Source: a virus
Strand: one strand, 5' to 3'
IMG/VR virus record: IMGVR_UViG_3300012009_000173
Span: 1-20,366 of that record
DNA length: 20,366 nt
The position numbers and the translations under genes are program-made. The notes under the pieces are model-generated. The model had not been told where the DNA came from. It worked only from the letters and a program-made list of their open reading frames with translations, and made no database searches. Position 1 is the first letter of the stretch. Every line of letters begins with the position of its first letter. Positions 3,705 through 20,366 of the stretch are shown piece by piece.

Positions 3705-3718
3705 TTTTGATATCAAAA
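3705..3718. repeat. Gene-edge palindrome, copy 3
   Basis: TTTTGATATCAAAA starts at the base after the TAA stop (3702-3704), and its A run extends to 3724. A TTG inside it (3707) would open a spurious MISKKK extension of the next gene. Confidence 0.9.
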
Positions 3719-3742
3719 AAAAAAGGGAGATTAAAGATAGGT

Positions 3743-4273
3743 ATGGGCATTTATGATGACAAAAATGATTATATGGCGCGTTATCGCGATGATCAAAAAG
3801 ATGTTAGAGGACAATATGTTTACTTACTTCAAGCAAATGGTTATCATGGCTTATTATCTAGCATTCGGTGGCGATGTAAGATTGGATTAGCTAATAATCC
3901 AGAGCGCCGCCTCAAAGAATTAAATTCAGCACAAGCACCATGTAAAATAACTGGGATTAGATACATAGAAGTAATAGATAATGTCAGTGTTGAATATCAG
4001 TTGCACCAAAAATTCGCTAAATACCGAGTATACGGTGAATGGTTTGATTTTTGGCGATGGGAGATCATATTAGTAAATCTAGCGTTTGACGAATACATCA
4101 AAGCAAATTCTCGGTCACGTAAATGGATTAAGCGCTTGTTTATAGTTAATCTCATGATTTTGGCATTTGTTGCTAGTCTAATCATTTCAGTGACCTTGAG
4201 TGACAATCTAAGTGGCGATGGGGATGAGAACATTAATAATAATGTCAATCATGATGTTATTATTAATAAATAA
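3743..4273 (+). CDS. GIY-YIG-like (T5orf172/MUG113-type) protein with C-terminal membrane helix
   Basis: Taken from the ATG at 3743 (176 aa). The frame is also open from a TTG at 3707, but that codon is inside the repeated palindrome, so the extension is doubtful. Residues about 22-105 fit the compact GIY-YIG superfamily domain called T5orf172 or MUG113: a YVYLLQ strand, then CKIGLANNPERRLKEL (45-60) with the KIG and Arg positions of the family, an invariant-type Glu near 84, LHQKFA and GEWF. Such domains are nuclease-like and common in phages. Residues 132-152 are one hydrophobic helix after a basic cluster (RKWIKRLF), followed by an Asn/Asp-rich tail. A nuclease-like domain tied to the membrane is unusual. 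It leads a cassette with the RHH-like and helicase genes. Confidence 0.7.
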   Translation: MGIYDDKNDYMARYRDDQKDVRGQYVYLLQANGYHGLLSSIRWRCKIGLANNPERRLKELNSAQAPCKITGIRYIEVIDNVSVEYQLHQKFAKYRVYGEWFDFWRWEIILVNLAFDEYIKANSRSRKWIKRLFIVNLMILAFVASLIISVTLSDNLSGDGDENINNNVNHDVIINK

Positions 4274-4295
4274 ATAGTCCTTATTAGTTGAAAAA

Positions 4296-4766
4296 ATGGC
4301 AAAACACAGAAAGCGATCTAAGCATAAATACGGTCAAAAGGAAAGGTTAACCGTTAGCCTTAGAAAGACTAATCACGAATTGATTGAGGTTCATCGGCAT
4401 TACCTTTGGCTGACAACCGGAAAGGATAAAAGCGTCAGCAAAATAATCGCTGAAATAGTCGAATACTACAAATTTATTCGTGATGAATCACCGCAATTTA
4501 TACTAAATAGTACAAAGCAAAATGAATCTCTAATCGAGGGAGTATCGAAAAAAGACAAGACGATCAAAAAAGAGCAAGTATACTTTGATCCAGCAGAGGT
4601 TAGCTTTTTATATTCTTTCTCCGATCAGTATACTAAATCAAGTGTTTCGGAAGCGATCAATAGGATTTTGATTGAGTATTACTTAGTAGTTAAGGATCAT
4701 ACCAGCATATTAACTACTTATTCTCTAATGCCTAAGCAAAAGCCACGATCAAGTACAGCAGCATAA
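4296..4766 (+). CDS. Protein with two RHH-like halves, 156 aa
   Basis: The N-terminus is very basic (KHRKRSKHKYGQK). Two segments share a ribbon-helix-helix-like pattern: residues about 17-62, strand RLTVSL, helix, then SVSKIIAEIVEYYKF; and residues about 93-133, strand QVYF, helix, then SVSEAINRILIEYYL. The shared string is S-V-S-(K/E)-x-I/A-x-x-I-(V/I)-E-Y-Y. RHH proteins normally bind DNA palindromes as dimers of a single domain; a tandem copy in one chain would be a built-in dimer. The assignment comes from pattern reading only. It sits between a nuclease-like gene and a helicase gene, with short gaps (22 nt each side), so all three are probably co-transcribed. Confidence 0.6.
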   Translation: MAKHRKRSKHKYGQKERLTVSLRKTNHELIEVHRHYLWLTTGKDKSVSKIIAEIVEYYKFIRDESPQFILNSTKQNESLIEGVSKKDKTIKKEQVYFDPAEVSFLYSFSDQYTKSSVSEAINRILIEYYLVVKDHTSILTTYSLMPKQKPRSSTAA

Positions 4767-4788
4767 AACACATTAACCAAGATTAATT

Positions 4789-6213
4789 ATGCTTACTTTA
4801 CGTAAGTTTCAGTTGCCTCTAGTCAACATTTTAGACGAGTTACCTTCTAGTATATTAGTCGCCCCTACCGGAAGTGGGAAAACCATGATCGGATGTGCCT
4901 TAGCATGGCGCGAGATCCAAAGAGGAGGTAAGGTTTGTTTTGTTATCCCACGGGATAACTTAGCTAGGCAAACTGAAAGAACTTTGAAGCAATGGGATCT
5001 ATCTAGCGCTTTCATCTTAGGGAATGAATCAGAGAATAGATCGGCTAATGTACAGATCGCCTCTTATCAGTCCCTAGGGAGTCAGTTAAGGGACTTGAAT
5101 TGGTTGATTGACATTACTACCCGTTGGATAATAGATGAAGCACACATTACTGCATTCGCTAAAGCATTAGAGAAGCCATTGCGAACGGCAAAAAGTAAAA
5201 TTGGGTTAACCGCGACTCCGTGGCAAATGCAACAACGATCGCTACTAGATATTTTTGATCGCCCTGTATTTGCCCCTAATCCCGGTGAATTAATTAAAAT
5301 GGGCTTTTTAGCCAAGCCAATTTACTTTATCCCAACTAATAAAGGGAAAGGTTCAAAATTACAAGCATCGCCGGAATTCGTTTACGATCATTGGGATCGT
5401 ATATCTGGAGGCGAGAGAACATTTATTTTTTGTAACTCGATTAATCATAGTGACGTGACGGCGCGATACTTTCAAAGTAAGGGAACTAACGCAGTTTCTG
5501 TTACTTCAAAAACAGAATGTAAAAAAGTAGAAAAGACATTTGAAGAATTCCGACAAGGTATTGTTACGGTATTAGTTAGTTGTCAAAAATTAGCAGAAGG
5601 TTGCGATATTCCGGAAGCAACAACAGTTATTTTAAATAATCGAACAGACAATCGTACAAGTTATTTTCAACGATTAGGACGAGGGGCAAGGATCGCTCCT
5701 GGAAAGGAATCATTTAAAGTTATAGACTTTGTTAAATTAGTAGATAAATTTGGTAAATTAGAAGATGTTAGATTAAGTGAAGAAGATTTTGATGTTACGC
5801 CCAAGGATGGCGATCGAGTACCTTTTAAAGTGTGTCCTATAGAGACCTGTAACCGCCTTAATCACCCAATGGCAAGAGTATGTAAATGCGGACACATATT
5901 TGATTTTGAGCTTGTAGAACGGGAGCACACACAAGATTTAATTCGCCTCACACAAGGAGATTGGGAAGATTTAGCATTAGAAGCCTTCCACAATTTAATG
6001 TTGCGAGATTTCCGGCAAGGCGTCGATCGCTGCGAAAAAGAATTCTTTAAGATGTATAGCTATTACCCACCCAATCATTGGGTGGTAGATGCGAAATTAC
6101 CGGATAATCTACGATCTCAAGCTGTAGATGTAAGTTGGCGAATGTTTAAAAAAAAGGTAATGAAAAGATTACCACAAGATAGCATTCAGTTATCCATTCC
6201 AGGATTACTCTAG
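4789..6213 (+). CDS. SF2 DEAH-type helicase with zinc ribbon
   Basis: A DNA or RNA translocase of helicase superfamily 2, 474 aa. Visible motifs in order: F7-Q8 near the start, Walker A APTGSGKT (25-32), Walker B DEAH (116-119), motif III TATP (141-144), a second RecA-like domain with SCQKLAEGCDIP (about 264-274), and motif VI QRLGRGAR (294-301) with arginine fingers. A four-Cys site follows (C349, C354, C365, C367), which should hold zinc, then a C-terminal helical part that I do not recognise. All ATPase residues are intact. Phages use helicases of this kind in replication, recombination or restriction avoidance. The partners upstream (nuclease-like, RHH-like) and downstream (DNA methyltransferase) point to DNA metabolism; the exact role is open. 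Confidence 0.88.
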   Translation: MLTLRKFQLPLVNILDELPSSILVAPTGSGKTMIGCALAWREIQRGGKVCFVIPRDNLARQTERTLKQWDLSSAFILGNESENRSANVQIASYQSLGSQLRDLNWLIDITTRWIIDEAHITAFAKALEKPLRTAKSKIGLTATPWQMQQRSLLDIFDRPVFAPNPGELIKMGFLAKPIYFIPTNKGKGSKLQASPEFVYDHWDRISGGERTFIFCNSINHSDVTARYFQSKGTNAVSVTSKTECKKVEKTFEEFRQGIVTVLVSCQKLAEGCDIPEATTVILNNRTDNRTSYFQRLGRGARIAPGKESFKVIDFVKLVDKFGKLEDVRLSEEDFDVTPKDGDRVPFKVCPIETCNRLNHPMARVCKCGHIFDFELVEREHTQDLIRLTQGDWEDLALEAFHNLMLRDFRQGVDRCEKEFFKMYSYYPPNHWVVDAKLPDNLRSQAVDVSWRMFKKKVMKRLPQDSIQLSIPGLL

Positions 6214-6224
6214 CTCAATTGTAG

Positions 6225-6244
6225 TTTTTTTGATATCAAAAAAA
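6225..6244. repeat. Gene-edge palindrome, copy 4 (longest)
   Basis: A 20-bp perfect palindrome: seven T, GATATC, seven A. The A run ends at 6246, one base before the methyltransferase ATG at 6248, and there is no Shine-Dalgarno between them. Confidence 0.9.
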
Positions 6245-6247
6245 AAG

Positions 6248-7231
6248 ATGGATCAATTAACGGGCATTACTTTATTTTCCGGGATAGGCGGCGCTGCTTA
6301 TGGAATGAAAAAAGCAGGAATTCGGATGATAGCATCTGTCGAGTATGATGAGGAAAATTCAAAGTATTCTGATTACTGTAAGCGCGTCAGTAGTATCAAT
6401 TTCCCAGATTGCCATTTTTATAAGGCTAAAGTAGAAGAAGTTGCCGCTTATTTACCGCGCTGTGATGTTTTACAAGCGTCGCCTGTCTGTAGTAATTTAA
6501 GCGTCGCTAATCACATGAGATCTTATGTGGCGAGTAAGCAAAAAGGCAAGGAAACTAGACGTGATCATGTAATGGCAAAAGGAATAGTTACGGCTATTAG
6601 ATCTACTTGCCCAACTTATTTTTGGCTTGAACAAGTACCCGCTTATCTTAAATCAGATAGTTTCGGAATTATTAAAAATTTCCTAGATGCTGCTGGGTAT
6701 GAAATGAAAATAAAAGTGATAGATGCTGCTGATTATGGAGTACCACAAAACCGGAAAAGATTGATTTTATTAGCAAGTAAAAATGGGCTCTGGGATTTTC
6801 CGTCAGAACGTCTAAGAATGGGATGGAAAGAAGCGATCGCGGGCATTGAATTAATGCCTGGCAAACTATCAGAGAGGCAGATATTAACTCTGATAAATAA
6901 GACAAAAAAAGGTATAGAGTATGACATGAAAAAAGGGATATTAGTCCAGAATGACGGTCTAAGCCCAACAATAAGAAGGTATGATCAGCCAATCTGGACG
7001 CTTACCCGAAATACTTTTAAGGATCGCGAGACTTCTGCTGTTGGGACTATCGTAGATGATGAGGGATTATGGTATATTCCTGTTAAAGGAATTGCTCGCT
7101 TATGCGGTTTTCCTGATGATTTCTACATCGAATCACGCTATGGTGGGCAAGGGTTAGGGTATGCCGTACCACCCCTATTAGCTCAAGTATTAACCCAAAA
7201 GTTAACAAGGAATATATCTCATGTATTCTGA
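6248..7231 (+). CDS. DNA cytosine-C5 methyltransferase
   Basis: Transfers methyl from S-adenosylmethionine to C5 of cytosine in a DNA target. From the ATG at 6248 it has 327 residues, the usual size for a single-domain Dcm-type enzyme. Motif I is LFSGIGG (9-15). Motif IV is ASPVCSNLS, with catalytic C81 in a Pro-Val-Cys context rather than the usual Pro-Pro-Cys. Motif VI is LEQV (127-130) in place of ENV. Motif VIII is QNRKR (167-171), followed by a target-recognition region, ARLCGFPDDF, and GYAVPP (304-309, motif X). All core motifs are present, so it is probably active. No restriction enzyme is adjacent, so self-protection or regulation is more likely than a full restriction system. An upstream TTG in the palindrome would add MISKKK and is rejected as the start. 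Confidence 0.92.
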   Translation: MDQLTGITLFSGIGGAAYGMKKAGIRMIASVEYDEENSKYSDYCKRVSSINFPDCHFYKAKVEEVAAYLPRCDVLQASPVCSNLSVANHMRSYVASKQKGKETRRDHVMAKGIVTAIRSTCPTYFWLEQVPAYLKSDSFGIIKNFLDAAGYEMKIKVIDAADYGVPQNRKRLILLASKNGLWDFPSERLRMGWKEAIAGIELMPGKLSERQILTLINKTKKGIEYDMKKGILVQNDGLSPTIRRYDQPIWTLTRNTFKDRETSAVGTIVDDEGLWYIPVKGIARLCGFPDDFYIESRYGGQGLGYAVPPLLAQVLTQKLTRNISHVF

Positions 7232-8480: not shown

Positions 8481-8494
8481 TTTTGATATCAAAA
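8481..8494. repeat. Gene-edge palindrome, copy 5
   Basis: Core TTTTGATATCAAAA with an eight-base T run from 8477. It lies between the convergent fibre and hub genes, and the TGA stop of the hub gene (8489-8491) is part of the palindrome itself. Confidence 0.9.
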
Positions 8495-10228
8495 TATCTT
8501 AATTAATTCTAATTCACTCGTCCAACCACGCGACGGTGATAATTTATGAGTAACTGCATCAATTTGATATTTACCCTTATCAACTGTATCAAATCCAAGT
8601 ATTCCAATATTTACACCAGCGTGATAAATACTTTTACCCTCAACGCTTATTTTACCCGTATGTCTTTGTCTATTAGTTATTTTTAACGCGCCTGCACTAC
8701 GAGCTAATGCTGTGTTAATATCATTATAAAATCCTTCTGGTCTTAAGTCTAAGTAATCGGTTGTGGGCGAATCAGCTACGATTGAAGCAGAGCTTGAAGT
8801 ATTTTTGTAAGCGGCAAATGCCCTCTGATAAATGCCTTTTGTGCGAGTAATAAATTCAGCGCTTAAGCAATCAGTAGTGCTAATTCCAGTCACAATTAGA
8901 TCATTTTCTAGATCAAAATATTTTTGAAAGTAAATGTTACCTAATTTCATTTTTAAGCGATAACCAAAGTTATTAGCTAAGCGCTTTAAAACTTCAGTGT
9001 AACTGCTTTCTTTGACTTCTACCGTACTAGATGAATCATTACTTGTTCCGGGTATAATCGTACTTGAAATATTACCAACTACGTTTAAATTAAATAAAGA
9101 AGCAATATCATAGATTATACCTCTTAAGTTTAAATTCCTATAAGTCACAATTGTTTGACTATTTAGTCCCATCCGATAATCGTAAGATTGAGAACTAATG
9201 GTTATCGTACTAGGATTATTACTTGAAAATTGGCGTTGAGGATAATCACACTTATGTGTTCCCGTGTTCAACCATCTATCTTCTATGTCGCCTTCATACC
9301 CCCATTTAATCTCAATTGAATCACCTTCTATGGGGATTGAATCTGCTTCTGCATCAAATTCTATATCAAGTGAAGATGTACCCCCACTAATCGGATCTTG
9401 ATAATTGATAGACGAAATTAATGGTGCTAATTGATTAACTTTTTGTACTGAATTAACAACAAAGCTAAATATTTTAGGACGCTTTGGTACTCCTAATGGT
9501 GATCCTAGTAATTGCATAGAAACATCAATTATTCCTTCTATTCTCATCACCGATTGTATTCGTTCAATAACATATTGTCCATAATCTATTCCTAGCAAAA
9601 ATAATGGATAACGTCCTTGGTTTTCAGCTAATATTGTTAAAGCTCGATAGCGATCGTCATAATTAGAATCATCTTGTTTTCTAAATCTAAAGTTTAGATT
9701 TATTGATCGCGGTGAATCACCTTCTACCTGTAATTTAGGTTTATTATTAAGTCTAGGTAACGATGAAAGTGGATAATCAGCATCTATTTTTAATCCTTGG
9801 ATTATATCATTTTGAGTAATATCAAAGCTACCTAGAGAACCTATTATTCTTGCTTGATTTTGAATAATGGTCGCAACATTCATAGTAAAGTTAACTTGAC
9901 TTAGCTCTACTATTGTAGTTACATGGTCTAAAGTATTAATCGATGAAGATAGTTTTTGGATTATAAACGATCCGTAATCGCTATTATTAATAATTACGTT
10001 AAGTGTAATTCTTGAATCTGCTAAATCCTGTAATGTACGATATCGCGCCGTACTAGGAAATTTAATTAATAAAATACAGGTTCCTGATCCCTTAGAAGCG
10101 ATCTGCAAGATTGGATAATTCGACAATCTTTGCATTTTGATGTATTGGTACTCTAAGCTATTTTCTACTCTAAGCAATTCATCTGAATTGATCGCTAAAC
10201 TTCCTAAGTAAGCAATTATATAAGCCAT
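8489..10228 (-). CDS. Baseplate hub, gpU-like plus gpD-like fusion
   Basis: 579 aa. The N-terminal part (about 1-250) holds features of the P2 gpU tail-completion type, including a DDRYRALTILAENQGRYPLFLLG region followed by GQYVIERIQ and a strand-rich end. The C-terminal part (about 255-579) resembles P2 gpD and the late-control-D hub family: PKIFSFVVNSVQKV, a beta-rich head, SSYTEVLKRLANNFGYRLKMKLGNIYF, and a closing LSPSRGWTSELELIKIF strand. In P2 and Mu these roles belong to separate genes after the tape measure, so a fused protein is notable. It would cap the tail tube and form the hub for the spike. The ATG directly continues the A run of the palindrome at 10229-10246, with no Shine-Dalgarno. 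Confidence 0.75.
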   Translation of the reverse strand: MAYIIAYLGSLAINSDELLRVENSLEYQYIKMQRLSNYPILQIASKGSGTCILLIKFPSTARYRTLQDLADSRITLNVIINNSDYGSFIIQKLSSSINTLDHVTTIVELSQVNFTMNVATIIQNQARIIGSLGSFDITQNDIIQGLKIDADYPLSSLPRLNNKPKLQVEGDSPRSINLNFRFRKQDDSNYDDRYRALTILAENQGRYPLFLLGIDYGQYVIERIQSVMRIEGIIDVSMQLLGSPLGVPKRPKIFSFVVNSVQKVNQLAPLISSINYQDPISGGTSSLDIEFDAEADSIPIEGDSIEIKWGYEGDIEDRWLNTGTHKCDYPQRQFSSNNPSTITISSQSYDYRMGLNSQTIVTYRNLNLRGIIYDIASLFNLNVVGNISSTIIPGTSNDSSSTVEVKESSYTEVLKRLANNFGYRLKMKLGNIYFQKYFDLENDLIVTGISTTDCLSAEFITRTKGIYQRAFAAYKNTSSSASIVADSPTTDYLDLRPEGFYNDINTALARSAGALKITNRQRHTGKISVEGKSIYHAGVNIGILGFDTVDKGKYQIDAVTHKLSPSRGWTSELELIKIF

Positions 10229-10250: not shown

Positions 10251-12377
10251 TTAAAATTTAGTGCGATCTACCTTTTGTCTCCCTCTTTCGATAAGCTGCA
10301 AAAACTCCCTATTACTGCGACGTAATGAATCTAGGATAAAATCATTACCTAGATCGCTTCCTGTACTGCCTCCTGTACCTCCATTTATGTGAATGGTACG
10401 ATTATCATTGATAACCATTGTACCACCTCCTGCGCCTCCTGTAGGGCTAACTAGAGCGCTCTTAGTTTGTCCTAATGCGTTCTTCATGGCACCAGCTCCA
10501 CTGAAGCCAGAAAAGCCAGAAGCAAAATTAGTCATCGTCGCTTTGCCGGCTTCCCCTAAATTAGATAAAGGCGATGGTATTTTGGGTTCACTTCCCGGTA
10601 ACATACCCCGTAATTGGTTTAATTGATTTCTAAATCTATCGATCACTTTATTAAATTCGTTGTTGATGCCGGCACCAAAATTACGGATAAAGCTAGTACC
10701 GGCATTCCAAGCATTACTCGCCATATTTAATAATGCAACTTTAATCCTAGTTAATTGATAATTTATTTCTGTTTCTAGTCTGGTAAATTTAGCACCAACT
10801 GATCCAAGTATTGTTCCTATCGCTCCGGGAACTTGCGCAATATTTCCAGGGAAAGCGATAATTGAATTCTTGAGTCCTAATAAATGATATTTCGCCTCTG
10901 AGGTGGCTGTATGTACTGCAGGGGGTAGTTTATCCCAATTAGCTATTAATAACCCTATTCCTGTCCCTAACGCTACAAAGCCCGCTAAAGTTGCGGCGAT
11001 CGGAAGCGATACCCCAGCGATCGCCGCACCTGCGATTTTAGCAGAAAATGCTAATTTACCTAAATTTAAAATAGCCCCTGGTAAGGCAAGCAATTTAAGT
11101 GTACTTATCGCCTGAATCAGCGATCCCATCACAATTAAAACTGGTGATACTGCTAAACCTACCCCGACAAGGGAAATACCAAACTTGACGATCTCTGGGT
11201 TAGTTTCCGCAAAAACAGTAAACTTGTCTACTAATGGGAGTAATCCACCGATTAAGTCAGTAATCGCGGGTAGGGCGACGCTACCTATCGTTATCCTTAA
11301 TCGTTCAAATTGAGCATTTAAAATAGCTTGTTGTCCTCGAACACCTGACAATCTTTTTTCTAATTCCTGATTTTTTTTAGCTAGATTTGATTTATCATAC
11401 TCATCGCCAGCAAATTTTAATGCTTCTCCTAATTTTTCATGGGAAACCGCTAAGGTTAGGATTTCGTCCGCGTAATCGGCTCCCATTATGTCTTTGACAG
11501 CTCCTAATGCTTTGCTAACATCAACATCAGAAACTTTCTTGATTTGAGTTAAGAAATGATTAATACCTTTATTCGCGTCTGTTGTCATTAATCTAGACAT
11601 TTCTTCTACTTCAATGTTAAGCGCTTTTAATCCATCAATCCCGCGAGTGCTTAATGTTTGAGGTGAAGTTAGCTTAGTCATCATCGAATTCATTGATCGA
11701 TAAGCTACCGCGTTCTTGATGCCTAACGCTTGCATCGTAGAGCCATAAGCGGCAAGATCTTTAACTCCTAATTTCAGTAATTTACCAGTAGCGGCTGTTT
11801 GTCGGACAAATTCGACGATCTGTGGAGTGGTGCCGCCTACCGCATCATCCATTTTATTTACTGCTGCACCAAATATATTTAACTCGTCTGTAGTCGCCCC
11901 TGTGATGGTCTGCAAGGCTGCGAAGGATTTCGCAAGATTAGTTACCTCTTGACCTTGCAAGTCTGTGATACCGGCGATCTCAGCGACTACCGTAGTGAAT
12001 CCCATTATTGCATCTTTAGCAACACCTAATCGCCCTGCTTCCGTCGCTAATTCTGCAAACTTAGATGGGAGCATTCCTAACGGTGGTGCAATTTCAAGAA
12101 CTTCTGCTCTAAATCCTGCTAAATCCTCACCGCTTAAATCTAATGCCCTAGACACTCCTAACATTTTTTGCTCAAAGTCGGCAGCGGTATTACCTGCAAC
12201 GTACAGTGCCGCCCCAAGTGGAGCCATGGCTAGTCCTAATTTCTGACCAGCCTTAACCATGTTTTTCCCAATTGCCTTGGCAGATGTTCCTACACTTTCC
12301 GCCGCCTTCCCAATATCGGAAAAGGCGCTTATTGCTTGTTTTACGTTAGCGATAACTCGGATAGTTTCGGTAATCAA
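10251..12377 (-). CDS. Tail tape measure protein
   Basis: 708 aa; sets tail length and is packed inside the tube. The N-terminal 300 residues match the phage tail tape measure core (TIGR01760-like): AADFEQKMLGVSRAL, LATEAGRLGVAK, LAKSFAALQTITGATTDELNIFG, AVAYRSMNSMMTKL. A Lys/Glu/Gln coiled coil follows near 325-350, then three hydrophobic segments (about 395-475), typical of the part inserted into the host membrane. The C-terminus is Gly-rich. The start is a TTG at 12377 that overlaps the TGA of the chaperone extension as TTGA, which suggests translational coupling. At roughly 1.5 angstrom per residue, the family rule, the tail would be about 100 nm. Confidence 0.9.
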   Translation of the reverse strand: MITETIRVIANVKQAISAFSDIGKAAESVGTSAKAIGKNMVKAGQKLGLAMAPLGAALYVAGNTAADFEQKMLGVSRALDLSGEDLAGFRAEVLEIAPPLGMLPSKFAELATEAGRLGVAKDAIMGFTTVVAEIAGITDLQGQEVTNLAKSFAALQTITGATTDELNIFGAAVNKMDDAVGGTTPQIVEFVRQTAATGKLLKLGVKDLAAYGSTMQALGIKNAVAYRSMNSMMTKLTSPQTLSTRGIDGLKALNIEVEEMSRLMTTDANKGINHFLTQIKKVSDVDVSKALGAVKDIMGADYADEILTLAVSHEKLGEALKFAGDEYDKSNLAKKNQELEKRLSGVRGQQAILNAQFERLRITIGSVALPAITDLIGGLLPLVDKFTVFAETNPEIVKFGISLVGVGLAVSPVLIVMGSLIQAISTLKLLALPGAILNLGKLAFSAKIAGAAIAGVSLPIAATLAGFVALGTGIGLLIANWDKLPPAVHTATSEAKYHLLGLKNSIIAFPGNIAQVPGAIGTILGSVGAKFTRLETEINYQLTRIKVALLNMASNAWNAGTSFIRNFGAGINNEFNKVIDRFRNQLNQLRGMLPGSEPKIPSPLSNLGEAGKATMTNFASGFSGFSGAGAMKNALGQTKSALVSPTGGAGGGTMVINDNRTIHINGGTGGSTGSDLGNDFILDSLRRSNREFLQLIERGRQKVDRTKF

Positions 12378-12568
12378 TGGCGACCTTTGTTTAGTTCTCT
12401 TTTCATTCTTCTCTCTTCTTTTTCTTGTCGTTCATTATCCTCTTTTATCAGATCATTTATTTCAATGATCCATTGACAAATGTTACTAAATCCACCTAAA
12501 CATTCTAAATCTTTAGGCGTCCACTTACACCAACGCAAAACCAAGATCAATTGCTTTGGTGACGGGAT
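12374..12568 (-). CDS. Chaperone C-terminal extension read by -1 frameshift
   Basis: The -1 reading frame continues from the slippery site at 12574-12568 for 64 codons (beginning IPSPKQLILVLRWCKWTPKD) to a TGA at 12376-12374. It is also open from a GTG at 12586, giving 70 aa if separately started. The position between the chaperone frame and the tape measure start is where phages encode the T part of a G-GT fusion. The C-terminal half is strongly charged (KEDNERQEKEERRMKRELNK) and may bind the tape measure. If frameshifting occurs, the fusion protein has 371 + 64 = 435 residues. Confidence 0.75.
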   Translation of the reverse strand: MPSPKQLILVLRWCKWTPKDLECLGGFSNICQWIIEINDLIKEDNERQEKEERRMKRELNKGRH

Positions 12569-12574
12569 AAAAAA
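12528..12574 (-). promoter_or_regulatory. Programmed -1 frameshift site with stem-loop
   Basis: On the minus strand the zero frame reads T_TTT_TTA (12574-12568), a canonical slippery heptamer. After a 6-nt spacer (TCCCGT) comes a stem: CACCAA (12561-12556) pairs with TTGGTG (12533-12528), then an A-G mismatch, then GCAA (12554-12551) pairs with TTGC (12538-12535), around a 12-nt loop. Heptamer, spacing and stem fit the known design of tail-chaperone frameshift signals. Confidence 0.75.
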
Positions 12575-13680
12575 CTTGTTAACCACTCTACTAACTTTTG
12601 TGTGCCACTAAATCCTAATTGATTAGGATCTTGTAATAAATCCTTGAAAATCAGTTTATCACTTGGATCACTCATATCTAATTGCTTACCATCAATAATA
12701 AATAGCCTTGGAATCATCCACAAATACGCGGCGAGGCGATCGCTATCAAGCCGTAATACATACTCATTAAATAAGTGCCTAGATGCCTTACCTTCTTCAA
12801 ATCTATGACTACAAATAGTAAAATCAGTAGATCGATTAAATGGGCGATTATCATTAATTTCAATTAATTTATCGGCATCTAATGCGTGATAAATCAAACT
12901 ACTATATTCTCTGAATTTTAAGCCTTGAACATCTTCATTTTTTAGATTAAAAGTATTAGCTAATAACCAATTATTTCCTTCTATTATTCCTTCTTTTTCC
13001 TTTTTTTCTTCATAATTAAAGTAATCTATACCGGCTAATTTTACTTTTTTGAATACTTTATCTGGGGCGATTAATTTATTATCAATTGGCTTAATAATTC
13101 CTAAAAAACCTTTCAGCCATTCGACTAACGTTATGACGCCATCAAAACCTAATCCTCCATTGATGGGTAATTCACTTAATAACTTTTCACGATCGTCTAC
13201 TTCATCAATTAGTAAGATCGCTTCTGACGTGATTGCCCATTCATAAGCATCAATAATACTGGAATTAAATAACCTCATATAATCAGAAAACGATTGTCCT
13301 GATTTTTCCTTTTCTCTAAATCTAAAACCATTAATAGCAAAGTCGCTAGTCTGATTGAATGGGCGATCGTCGTAACATTGTACTGTGACGGTAGAATCTA
13401 TTATTTCAGCTAGTAAACTACCATATTCTCTGCAGCTAAGAATGTCTAAATCTTCTTCAGTAATTCGCCTATTATCTATTAGAATCACTTCACTTAATAA
13501 CCATTCATTGCCGATCGTAACTGATTGACTTACCTTTCTTCTTTCATACTCAAAAAAAGCTTTTGCCGGCAATACATTTTTAGTAACATTTCCTAATACT
13601 GATAAATCAACATTAATCTGTTGTTTTTGTGCGACATCGACGATCGCGTGCGTTGATGATAAAACTTGATCTAAGTCCAT
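12547..13680 (-). CDS. Tail assembly chaperone, internally duplicated
   Basis: 377 aa, placed between tube and tape measure genes, the site of G/GT-type tail assembly chaperones in many phages; these coat the tape measure before tube polymerisation. The protein is two copies of one domain: residues about 24-194 and 203-371. Matching landmarks are NEWLL/NNWLL (58/236), REYGSL/REYSSL (84/257), DDRPFNQTSDF/DNRPFNRSTDF (104/277) and LVEWLKGFL/LVEWLTSFL (185/363). Both copies end at the same slippery heptamer in frame, at L193 and L371. The start ATG (13680) lies inside the end of the tube gene, a 10-bp overlap. The chaperone function is inferred from position and the frameshift; I do not recognise the sequence family itself. 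Confidence 0.75.
   Translation of the reverse strand: MDLDQVLSSTHAIVDVAQKQQINVDLSVLGNVTKNVLPAKAFFEYERRKVSQSVTIGNEWLLSEVILIDNRRITEEDLDILSCREYGSLLAEIIDSTVTVQCYDDRPFNQTSDFAINGFRFREKEKSGQSFSDYMRLFNSSIIDAYEWAITSEAILLIDEVDDREKLLSELPINGGLGFDGVITLVEWLKGFLGIIKPIDNKLIAPDKVFKKVKLAGIDYFNYEEKKEKEGIIEGNNWLLANTFNLKNEDVQGLKFREYSSLIYHALDADKLIEINDNRPFNRSTDFTICSHRFEEGKASRHLFNEYVLRLDSDRLAAYLWMIPRLFIIDGKQLDMSDPSDKLIFKDLLQDPNQLGFSGTQKLVEWLTSFLSRHQSN
13102..13108 (-). other. Second, probably vestigial slippery heptamer
   Basis: T_TTT_TTA in the zero frame at the end of the first chaperone repeat (codons 192-193). A -1 shift here would add only Arg-Asn-Tyr before a TAA (13093-13091), giving a 196-aa one-domain product. 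The following sequence can form only an AT-rich 6-bp stem (TTATTA with TAATAA). It looks like a relic copied with the duplication. Confidence 0.6.
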
Positions 13681-14195
13681 AAGTTTACGTCGTTGACTTT
13701 GTATATACCGTTGCCTGGATCAAATATAACATGAGATGATCCTACCTCATCTTCTACTTTATTCACCCCTAATTCTAACTCTAATTCTGATTTTTCCCCT
13801 GACTTCATTGTAAAGCCTGGTAAGGTTGTAATTATTCCCGTCATCAATACCCTAATAATTCCGGTTTGAGAAGTATATCTATCTGTCCCTTGACCAGAAA
13901 TCTGGAACGTTATAGGCTTTTTTAAAGCCATAGCAGTATTGACCATAGTATGAAAAATGGGTGAAATAGCTTTAAGGGTTAAAGATGATTCCATCGCCTT
14001 AAATATTAATGCACGATTGATTTGCCCTCCTTCTCCGAATCTTATCTCCTGCTCTACATCAATGGAAATTTTAGGCGGATCTATTGCTGATAACATCCCT
14101 TTCAGATCCGCAATATTTCCATCTAATCCAAGTAACCGAACGCTTGTAGAGTGATCGATTAGTAATTCAAAAATATTCTGATCGTCAAGTGCCAT
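13671..14195 (-). CDS. Major tail tube protein
   Basis: 174 aa, the size of the P2 FII-like tail tube family. The tube carries DNA and lies inside the contractile sheath. Supporting features: an N-terminal strand region with ISIDVEQEIRFGEGGQI, a central KPITFQISGQGTDRYTSQTG hairpin, and PGFTMKSGEKSELELELGVN, the typical strand near the end of this family. It follows the sheath gene by 34 bp, a gap holding a palindrome, and has a GAGG ribosome site about 9 nt before the ATG. It overlaps the chaperone start downstream. The sheath-tube-chaperone-tape measure order supports the call. Confidence 0.85.
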   Translation of the reverse strand: MALDDQNIFELLIDHSTSVRLLGLDGNIADLKGMLSAIDPPKISIDVEQEIRFGEGGQINRALIFKAMESSLTLKAISPIFHTMVNTAMALKKPITFQISGQGTDRYTSQTGIIRVLMTGIITTLPGFTMKSGEKSELELELGVNKVEDEVGSSHVIFDPGNGIYKVNDVNLWT

Positions 14196-19117: not shown

Positions 19118-20366
19118 TTAATCTATCTCTTCTACATCAATAATATCTACTATTTTATCACTTGTTAATGTTTTTTTCTGGGAATTAATGAGTTTATATT
19201 TTGTGCCAATTGGGACTACAACTTCATCTTCATCCTTTAGAGTTGAAAATTGCTTGATTGATTTGCCTTTTTTATTGTCAATTACTCGAACTATAGCGGC
19301 AGGGGCTTCTTCACGCATGGATGACTCACCATTAGCGAATCCTACCGCTACTTTTCCACTGCTTGAAAAACTACTATGATTTTTTAACTCTATTCCCTCT
19401 GTGCGCGTTTTTTGTATAAAGCTATCTCGGTCTTTTTTACTTCTAAATGTAATCCCTCGGTACAATGATCCCTTGTAAGGTGAAATATTATCAGAATATA
19501 AAATTTTATCTAAATCTTTAGTTATCTTTTCTCCTAATGGATCGGCTTTACCTCGCTGATGATTTTTAACGTTTTCGTAACCTACTTTAGTCCAATTGCT
19601 AATAGATTTATGAACTTTCTCGGCTTCATCTTTACTAATACCAAGGCGATCAGATAATTGATCTATTCTTTCCGTTCTAAATATTGAGAAATCGTCATGA
19701 GAACCTTTGGGTTCTGGCTTTTTCGCTTTCTTTGTTCCCTTATTAAAGGTGAAATCATCATCCTTTAAGGAGCCCCAATCCGTGATGATTTTACCCTTGA
19801 AACTGCCATTAGGATGATCTGTATCTAACATCCCTCGCCGCTTTAATTCTGCAGTTAAGACGGATGGCGCAGCTTCTAATGATTTAGCCTTTAACGGCGC
19901 ACCAGCTTTAACTACTCCCATAGAATGCTTAGATGCTATTTCTGCTAGGTCTTTATTCCCTAATTTACTTAGCTTTTCGCCGATCTGCCTATTATAAAAT
20001 TCCCCATATTTTCCGGTTAAATTTTTAGCATAAGTCAGAGTATTACTTGATAATGTTGTTTTGATGGCGTTAGGCGTCTGCGCTTCCATCAATGAGATCG
20101 CCCGCGTCCATACTGATGCTTCATTTTCATTTACGCCAATAGACTTTAAATATTTTTTATCTGCTTGTGAAACCTTACCTGAACCGCCCGTATCTGCTAT
20201 CTCAACTAGGCGATCGTTCATCTTACGCATGTCAGAGATTTCTGCTTTATTCAGTGGGCTTAATGGTAAGGGACTTTTAGCCGCCGCCATCATTTCCCTA
20301 TTACGATCTTTGCGATCGCTTATCCCTAACTTTCCATCTTCCCACGGTTCAAATTTCTCAGATGTC
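19118..20366 (-). CDS. Head-type protein with C-terminal ADP-ribosyltransferase domain (partial)
   Basis: The frame is open to the right edge: upstream of the ATG pair at 20293 it continues through 24 more codons (TSEKFEPWEDGKLGISDRKD...) with no stop, so the true start lies outside the window. Counting from that ATG, residues about 255-391 form an R-S-E class ADP-ribosyltransferase: Arg in SLYRG (R279), the Ser motif SFSSS (308-312), and E355-D-E357 (ExE) followed by VVVPIGTKY, typical of the last strand. All three catalytic sites are intact. These enzymes move ADP-ribose from NAD+ to a protein, usually on Arg when ExE is present. In phages such domains are often attached to or next to SPP1 gp7-type minor head proteins and may be injected with DNA. 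The substrate is unknown. Confidence 0.82.
   Translation of the reverse strand, partial: TSEKFEPWEDGKLGISDRKDRNREMMAAAKSPLPLSPLNKAEISDMRKMNDRLVEIADTGGSGKVSQADKKYLKSIGVNENEASVWTRAISLMEAQTPNAIKTTLSSNTLTYAKNLTGKYGEFYNRQIGEKLSKLGNKDLAEIASKHSMGVVKAGAPLKAKSLEAAPSVLTAELKRRGMLDTDHPNGSFKGKIITDWGSLKDDDFTFNKGTKKAKKPEPKGSHDDFSIFRTERIDQLSDRLGISKDEAEKVHKSISNWTKVGYENVKNHQRGKADPLGEKITKDLDKILYSDNISPYKGSLYRGITFRSKKDRDSFIQKTRTEGIELKNHSSFSSSGKVAVGFANGESSMREEAPAAIVRVIDNKKGKSIKQFSTLKDEDEVVVPIGTKYKLINSQKKTLTSDKIVDIIDVEEID

Follow-up and report, generated by a model that had tools for sequence, protein, structure and literature searches.

Why should a phage tail assembly chaperone gene contain the same slippery heptamer twice, and does the ribosome change frame at both? 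The question is raised by a virus record of 20366 bases with a G+C content of 37% (the window, i.e. the whole stretch of DNA analysed), in which an open reading frame of 377 codons carries T_TTT_TTA in the zero frame at two places, hereafter site 1 and site 2. The reading preferred here, to which we give a probability of roughly 0.87, is that the doubled gene arose from a one-domain ancestor, that –1 frameshifting at site 2 yields chaperones of 377 and 435 aa, and that site 1 is a relic.

A doubled chaperone gene in a contractile-tail operon

The window contains 13 GCGATCGC sites, which we take to be a hallmark of cyanobacterial hosts. Its minus strand holds a contractile-tail operon consisting of the sheath, an FII-type tube, the chaperone, the tape measure and a gpU/late-protein-like fusion (Table 1). 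The chaperone gene lies downstream of the PF04985 tube and upstream of the phrog_28/PF10145 tape measure, whose TTG start at 12377 is overlapped by the TGA (12376-12374) of the –1 frame. The coordinates of the 377-aa ORF, the frames and the product sizes are all as given in a preliminary description of the locus.

Table 1. Positions in the window of the tail genes, the halves and modules of the chaperone, and the elements around its two heptamers.
Feature	Position	Strand	Basis
Tail sheath protein	14230..15414	-	phrog_23
Tail tube protein, P2 FII type	13671..14195	-	PF04985
Tail assembly chaperone ORF, 377-aa zero-frame product	12547..13680	-	one-domain homologues
First half, D1, aa 1-193	13102..13680	-	homologous to one-domain relatives
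Module A1, aa 26-104, ~80 aa, chaperone-like (putative)	13369..13605	-	profile A vs B; HK97 gp13 match
Module B1, aa 105-193 (putative)	13102..13368	-	profile A vs B
Site 1, T_TTT_TTA in the zero frame, probably vestigial	13102..13108	-	–1 frame RNY, then stop
Second half, D2, aa 194-377	12550..13101	-	
Module A2, aa 203-277 (putative)	12850..13074	-	profile comparison
Module B2, aa 278-377 (putative)	12550..12849	-	profile comparison
Site 2, T_TTT_TTA in the zero frame, predicted functional –1 frameshift site	12568..12574	-	
Hairpin after site 2, arms 12561-12551 and 12538-12528, 10 bp, one mismatch, 6-nt spacer	12528..12561	-	weak evidence of function
–1 frame extension, 64 codons and stop	12374..12568	-	homologous to relatives' –1 peptides and P2-like E'
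Tail tape measure protein, 708 aa	10251..12377	-	phrog_28, PF10145

Two related domains of about 170 residues, each with T_TTT_TTA at its WLxxFL end, had been proposed for the protein, and the alignment of the two halves bears this out: they align end to end with 33.5% identity and a score of 229, where the best shuffle reaches 62 (z 37), as a head-to-tail duplication, and the heptamers (13108-13102 and 12574-12568) fall at equivalent residues (WLKGFL and WLTSFL). Since no ATG, GTG or TTG is found in frame within the first 68 codons of D2, the second half would be made only as a fusion. Three further zero-frame slippery heptamers in the gene, T_TTT_TTT (13558), A_AAA_AAG (13006) and A_AAA_AAT (12943), are without a useful –1 frame.

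The whole 377-aa query had no relatives among viral contigs, phages, plasmids, genome contigs and 386 cyanobacterial genomes, and no second doubled member was found among the one-domain loci, by profile search or in two further viral scans by neighbour genes. The PF04985 prophages from the family search have ordinary short E genes; of those inspected by eye, none looked doubled, and several loci hold another gene at that place. The doubled gene is thus known from one example, in a single metagenomic record.

Some other genes of the window are also recognizable. In one protein of 579 aa (8489-10228), a part resembling P2 gpU is fused to a part resembling a late tail protein (PF06995, phrog_52); P2 has a separate gene for each. 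The plus-strand genes at 3707-7231 encode a GIY-YIG/homing-endonuclease-like protein of 188 aa, a helicase (phrog_16) and a C5 DNA methyltransferase (phrog_116), and the C-terminal part of the minor head protein (19118-20293) is similar to phage proteins of the ADP-ribosyltransferase-like kind (phrog_16619, phrog_832). The palindrome TTTTGATATCAAAA occurs in ten perfect copies (at 442, 2064, 3705, 6228, 8481, 10231, 14212, 17726, 17753 and 18878; 0.02 expected by chance), all of which lie at gene borders, on both genome arms; none is present in nine related phage loci. The palindrome has the look of a stoperator-like, distributed operator or of some other putative protein-binding site. The TTG starts given by the ORF finder at 3707, 6230 and 18889 fall within it, all reading LISKK, and the true starts of these ORFs are probably a few codons downstream.

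Site 2 and the one-domain relatives

The relatives were reached only by way of the sheath; used as a query on 388 genomes of the order Cyanobacteriales, it turned up prophages in three of them (a cyanobacterial PsbA query served only for picking a central cyanobacterial genome). In five of the loci (L128, L129, L130, L131 and L134, from two or three genomes) the tube gene is followed by a one-domain gene, whose product aligns with either half of the window protein on its own. With the further loci and two IMG/VR contigs found by profile search, ten complete one-domain genes are available from cyanobacterial (pro)phages (L128, L130, L131, L134, L145, L153, L154 and the divergent L132, L133 and L136); none of the ten is doubled, each consisting of one domain of ~170 aa. 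The order tube, chaperone, tape measure is kept in the loci whose neighbours were checked (L128, L130, L134, L160).

In L128, the closest relative, T_TTT_TTA stands at the residue where the window has it, while L130, L131, L134, L145, L153 and L154 have A_AAT_TTT and L136 has G_GGA_AAG, and every relative with a classical heptamer encodes a homologous –1 peptide. The divergent chaperones L132 (9326-10078) and L133 (8203-8934) have a homologous –1 peptide as well; a classical X_XXY_YYZ site is absent from both, and their shift may take place at CTTAAAC/CTTAAAT or another motif.

In the window, a –1 slip at site 2 would open the 64 codons ending at the tape measure start that had been described, giving a predicted product of 435 aa. 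The encoded –1 peptide has 47% identity with its L128 counterpart (E 4e-15), scores above all 2000 shuffles against every relative (z 9-20, nine loci) and shares the family pattern P-[SN]-P-x-[DE]-L-...-K-[WY]-x-x-W-x-x-[KR]-[DE]-L. It also matches the E' profiles of P2-like prophages with an hhalign probability of 96.7% and a score of 48.6, against a shuffle maximum of 16.5, none of 200 column shuffles being as good. In the profile-profile comparisons (A-B and M-E') the 200-shuffle controls, and not the E-values, are the measure, as the profiles were compared on their own and not in the course of a database search. The –1 peptide is kept although the type of heptamer varies, a pattern that counts as the classical proof of programmed frameshifting by comparison, and this evidence argues strongly that site 2 is a real programmed –1 frameshift site; a –1 ORF arising by coincidence is refuted by the same conservation.

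The contribution of the mRNA structure after site 2 is less clear-cut. The 6-nt spacer and the 10-bp stem with one mismatch noted before are present, but the hairpin (–15 kcal/mol) is not better than shuffled sequence, 33 of 200 dinucleotide shuffles being as good (z –0.92) and 10% of the codon-order shuffles folding as well. In the relatives, the stretch following the heptamer tends to fold somewhat better than its codon-order shuffles (fractions 0 to 0.27). Conservation of the hairpin itself was considered and rejected, the stem positions of the window pairing in 7 of 11 cases in L128 and in 3-6 elsewhere, for most loci no better than in slid registers. A stimulator at site 2 is possible but unproven.

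Origin of the halves and the fate of site 1

The proposal that the ancestor had one domain and a frameshift site of its own finds support in the one-domain relatives at the equivalent place of the operon, in the T_TTT_TTA and homologous –1 peptide of L128, and in the grouping of each half, taken alone, with L128 (support 99/98 for D2 and 85/92 for D1). In the best tree D1 and D2 are joined with support of 82/87, or 92/93 when L136 is left out. The sister relation is not firm, as AU tests do not reject D1 with L128 (p 0.08) or D2 with L128 (p 0.15), and this result, together with the mere 33.5% identity of the halves, would also suit an event in which two diverged chaperone genes, one of them from another phage, recombined. 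Such an origin is nevertheless unlikely compared with duplication within one lineage: the best tree unites the halves, the DNA directly upstream of sites 1 and 2 is similar over about 50 bases, and both halves carry the heptamer that is otherwise found only in L128, the other relatives having different ones. Because L128 alone among the relatives has T_TTT_TTA, a one-domain ancestor already carrying this heptamer appears to be the simplest account. A similarity of the DNA past both sites (AAGCCAATTGAT versus AAAGCAATTGAT) was also considered; by it, the stop codon of the ancestor would lie one base off the reading frame of copy 1, but with p about 0.02 the similarity was not relied on.

As for site 1, a –1 slip would add RNY to the 193 aa read so far and then meet a stop, i.e. 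the three codons and 196-aa length foreseen earlier. The 68 nt past the heptamer fold with –4.5 kcal/mol, as compared with –15 at site 2; with neither an open –1 frame nor a comparable hairpin, the first signal has probably decayed, in line with the preliminary description. The heptamer itself needs no selection to persist, since the Phe-Leu pair at this place is common to L128 and both halves and codon usage predicts T_TTT_TTA in about 16% of such pairs; in the window it is present in 3 of 15, one of them inside an unrelated fibre gene. The short –1 frame, the weak fold and a retention explicable by codon usage together make a fossil the best reading of site 1.

The same description had suggested that site 1 still slips, to a useful single-domain form. 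If both heptamers were active, the 196-aa protein would be added to the other two and the ratio of single- to double-domain chaperones could be tuned; this is improbable. Site 1 is intact, in the right frame and at the homologous place, and sites of the TTTTTT type (TTTTTTG) slip measurably in P2-like phages (PMC3091744), but its –1 frame is closed, its heptamer is no more frequent than codon usage gives, the A_AAA_AAG at 13006 likewise stands in the zero frame with no useful –1 frame behind it, and no second doubled gene is known from which the conservation of site 1 could be judged. Site 1 may slip at a low level; a programmed role of it is not supported, nor are three products from one gene.

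Modules, known systems and a model for the doubled chaperone

A deeper repeat is suggested within each half. The profile of the first ~80 residues matches that of the second ~90 at 95%, with none of 200 shuffles near, and in the models predicted for D1 and D2 (pLDDT 82 and 87) one succession of helices and strands occurs twice in each half. The top Foldseek PDB match of D1 is the HK97 tail chaperone 2ob9, a weak one (E 2.0), which VIA places on model residues 21-100, i.e. the first repeat (A1), with Z 4.6 and 13% identity; D2 had no chaperone match in Foldseek or VIA. The comparison of modules A and B with E gives probabilities of 30-66%, above all 200 shuffles and below usual confidence. Each ~170-aa half probably goes back to an old pairing of chaperone modules of ~80 aa, and a chain of four modules is likely, A1-A2 and B1-B2 being close (z 15-28) and A-B distant, the pattern that nested doubling predicts. 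A history in which two rounds of doubling (one, two, four modules) are combined with slippage at both heptamers, giving forms of 196, 377 and 435 aa (two modules, four modules, and four together with E', respectively), is very improbable. Finally, chance or misassembly as the source of the halves and of the –1 ORF, which the single metagenomic record might invite, can be set aside, since the halves are far too divergent for a misassembly and their homology and that of the –1 peptide are highly significant.

Judged by its sequence, the window protein belongs to the known G/GT (E/E+E') chaperone class, its doubled form being the new part. In P2, a –1 shift at TTTTTTG produces E (91 aa) and E+E' (142 aa), and no downstream hairpin is known (PMC3091744). 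As in the window, P2 gpE/gpE+E' of the FETUD tail operon are encoded between an FII-type tube and the tape measure, and the ribosome changes to the –1 frame at a T6 heptamer close to the 3' end, as predicted for site 2; the E' of P2-like prophages is homologous by profile to the –1 extension. The differences are the size (377 and a predicted 435 aa, where the P2 E/E+E' family has a single E domain of ~90 aa), the last base of the heptamer (TTTTTTA in the window), the possible hairpin and the number of modules, apparently four in place of one. Phage lambda makes an abundant short gpG and a rare –1 extended gpGT, for whose roles a model exists (PMC5009743); it resembles the window in the rare extended form and in the place of the gene between tail tube and tape measure, and differs in being a siphovirus with a one-domain G and another slippery site. 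HK97 gp13 (PDB 2ob9) is one module of 104 residues. The one-domain chaperones of the cyanobacterial prophages are directly homologous, the –1 peptide included, but lack a second, heptamer-bearing half.

The preferred reading can be set out as follows. A one-domain ancestor that already bore the heptamer would have undergone an in-frame tandem duplication, after which the first copy lost its stop and its –1 ORF, so that the heptamer of site 1 was left only as Phe-Leu coding. Each domain being, probably, an older pair of modules, the chain would contain four of them. Most ribosomes would make the 377-aa protein, while a minority would shift to the –1 frame at site 2 and make the 435-aa protein, extended at its C terminus by an E'/T-like part. 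If lambda G/GT and P2 E/E+E' are a guide, the main 377-aa part may coat the tape measure and the extension of the longer form may recruit the tube protein at a fixed ratio. The doubling appears not to have brought a longer tail, as the 708-aa tape measure is within the range of the open frames of the one-domain relatives (666-836 aa).

In tailed phages the correct ratio of short to extended chaperone is needed for tail assembly. With two (apparently four) chaperone units fused in a single chain, the number of units per extension would change at an unchanged slip efficiency. The doubled chaperone may serve as a natural experiment on the number of chaperone units needed per tape measure and per extension, and the gene would record how duplication retires a programmed frameshift signal.
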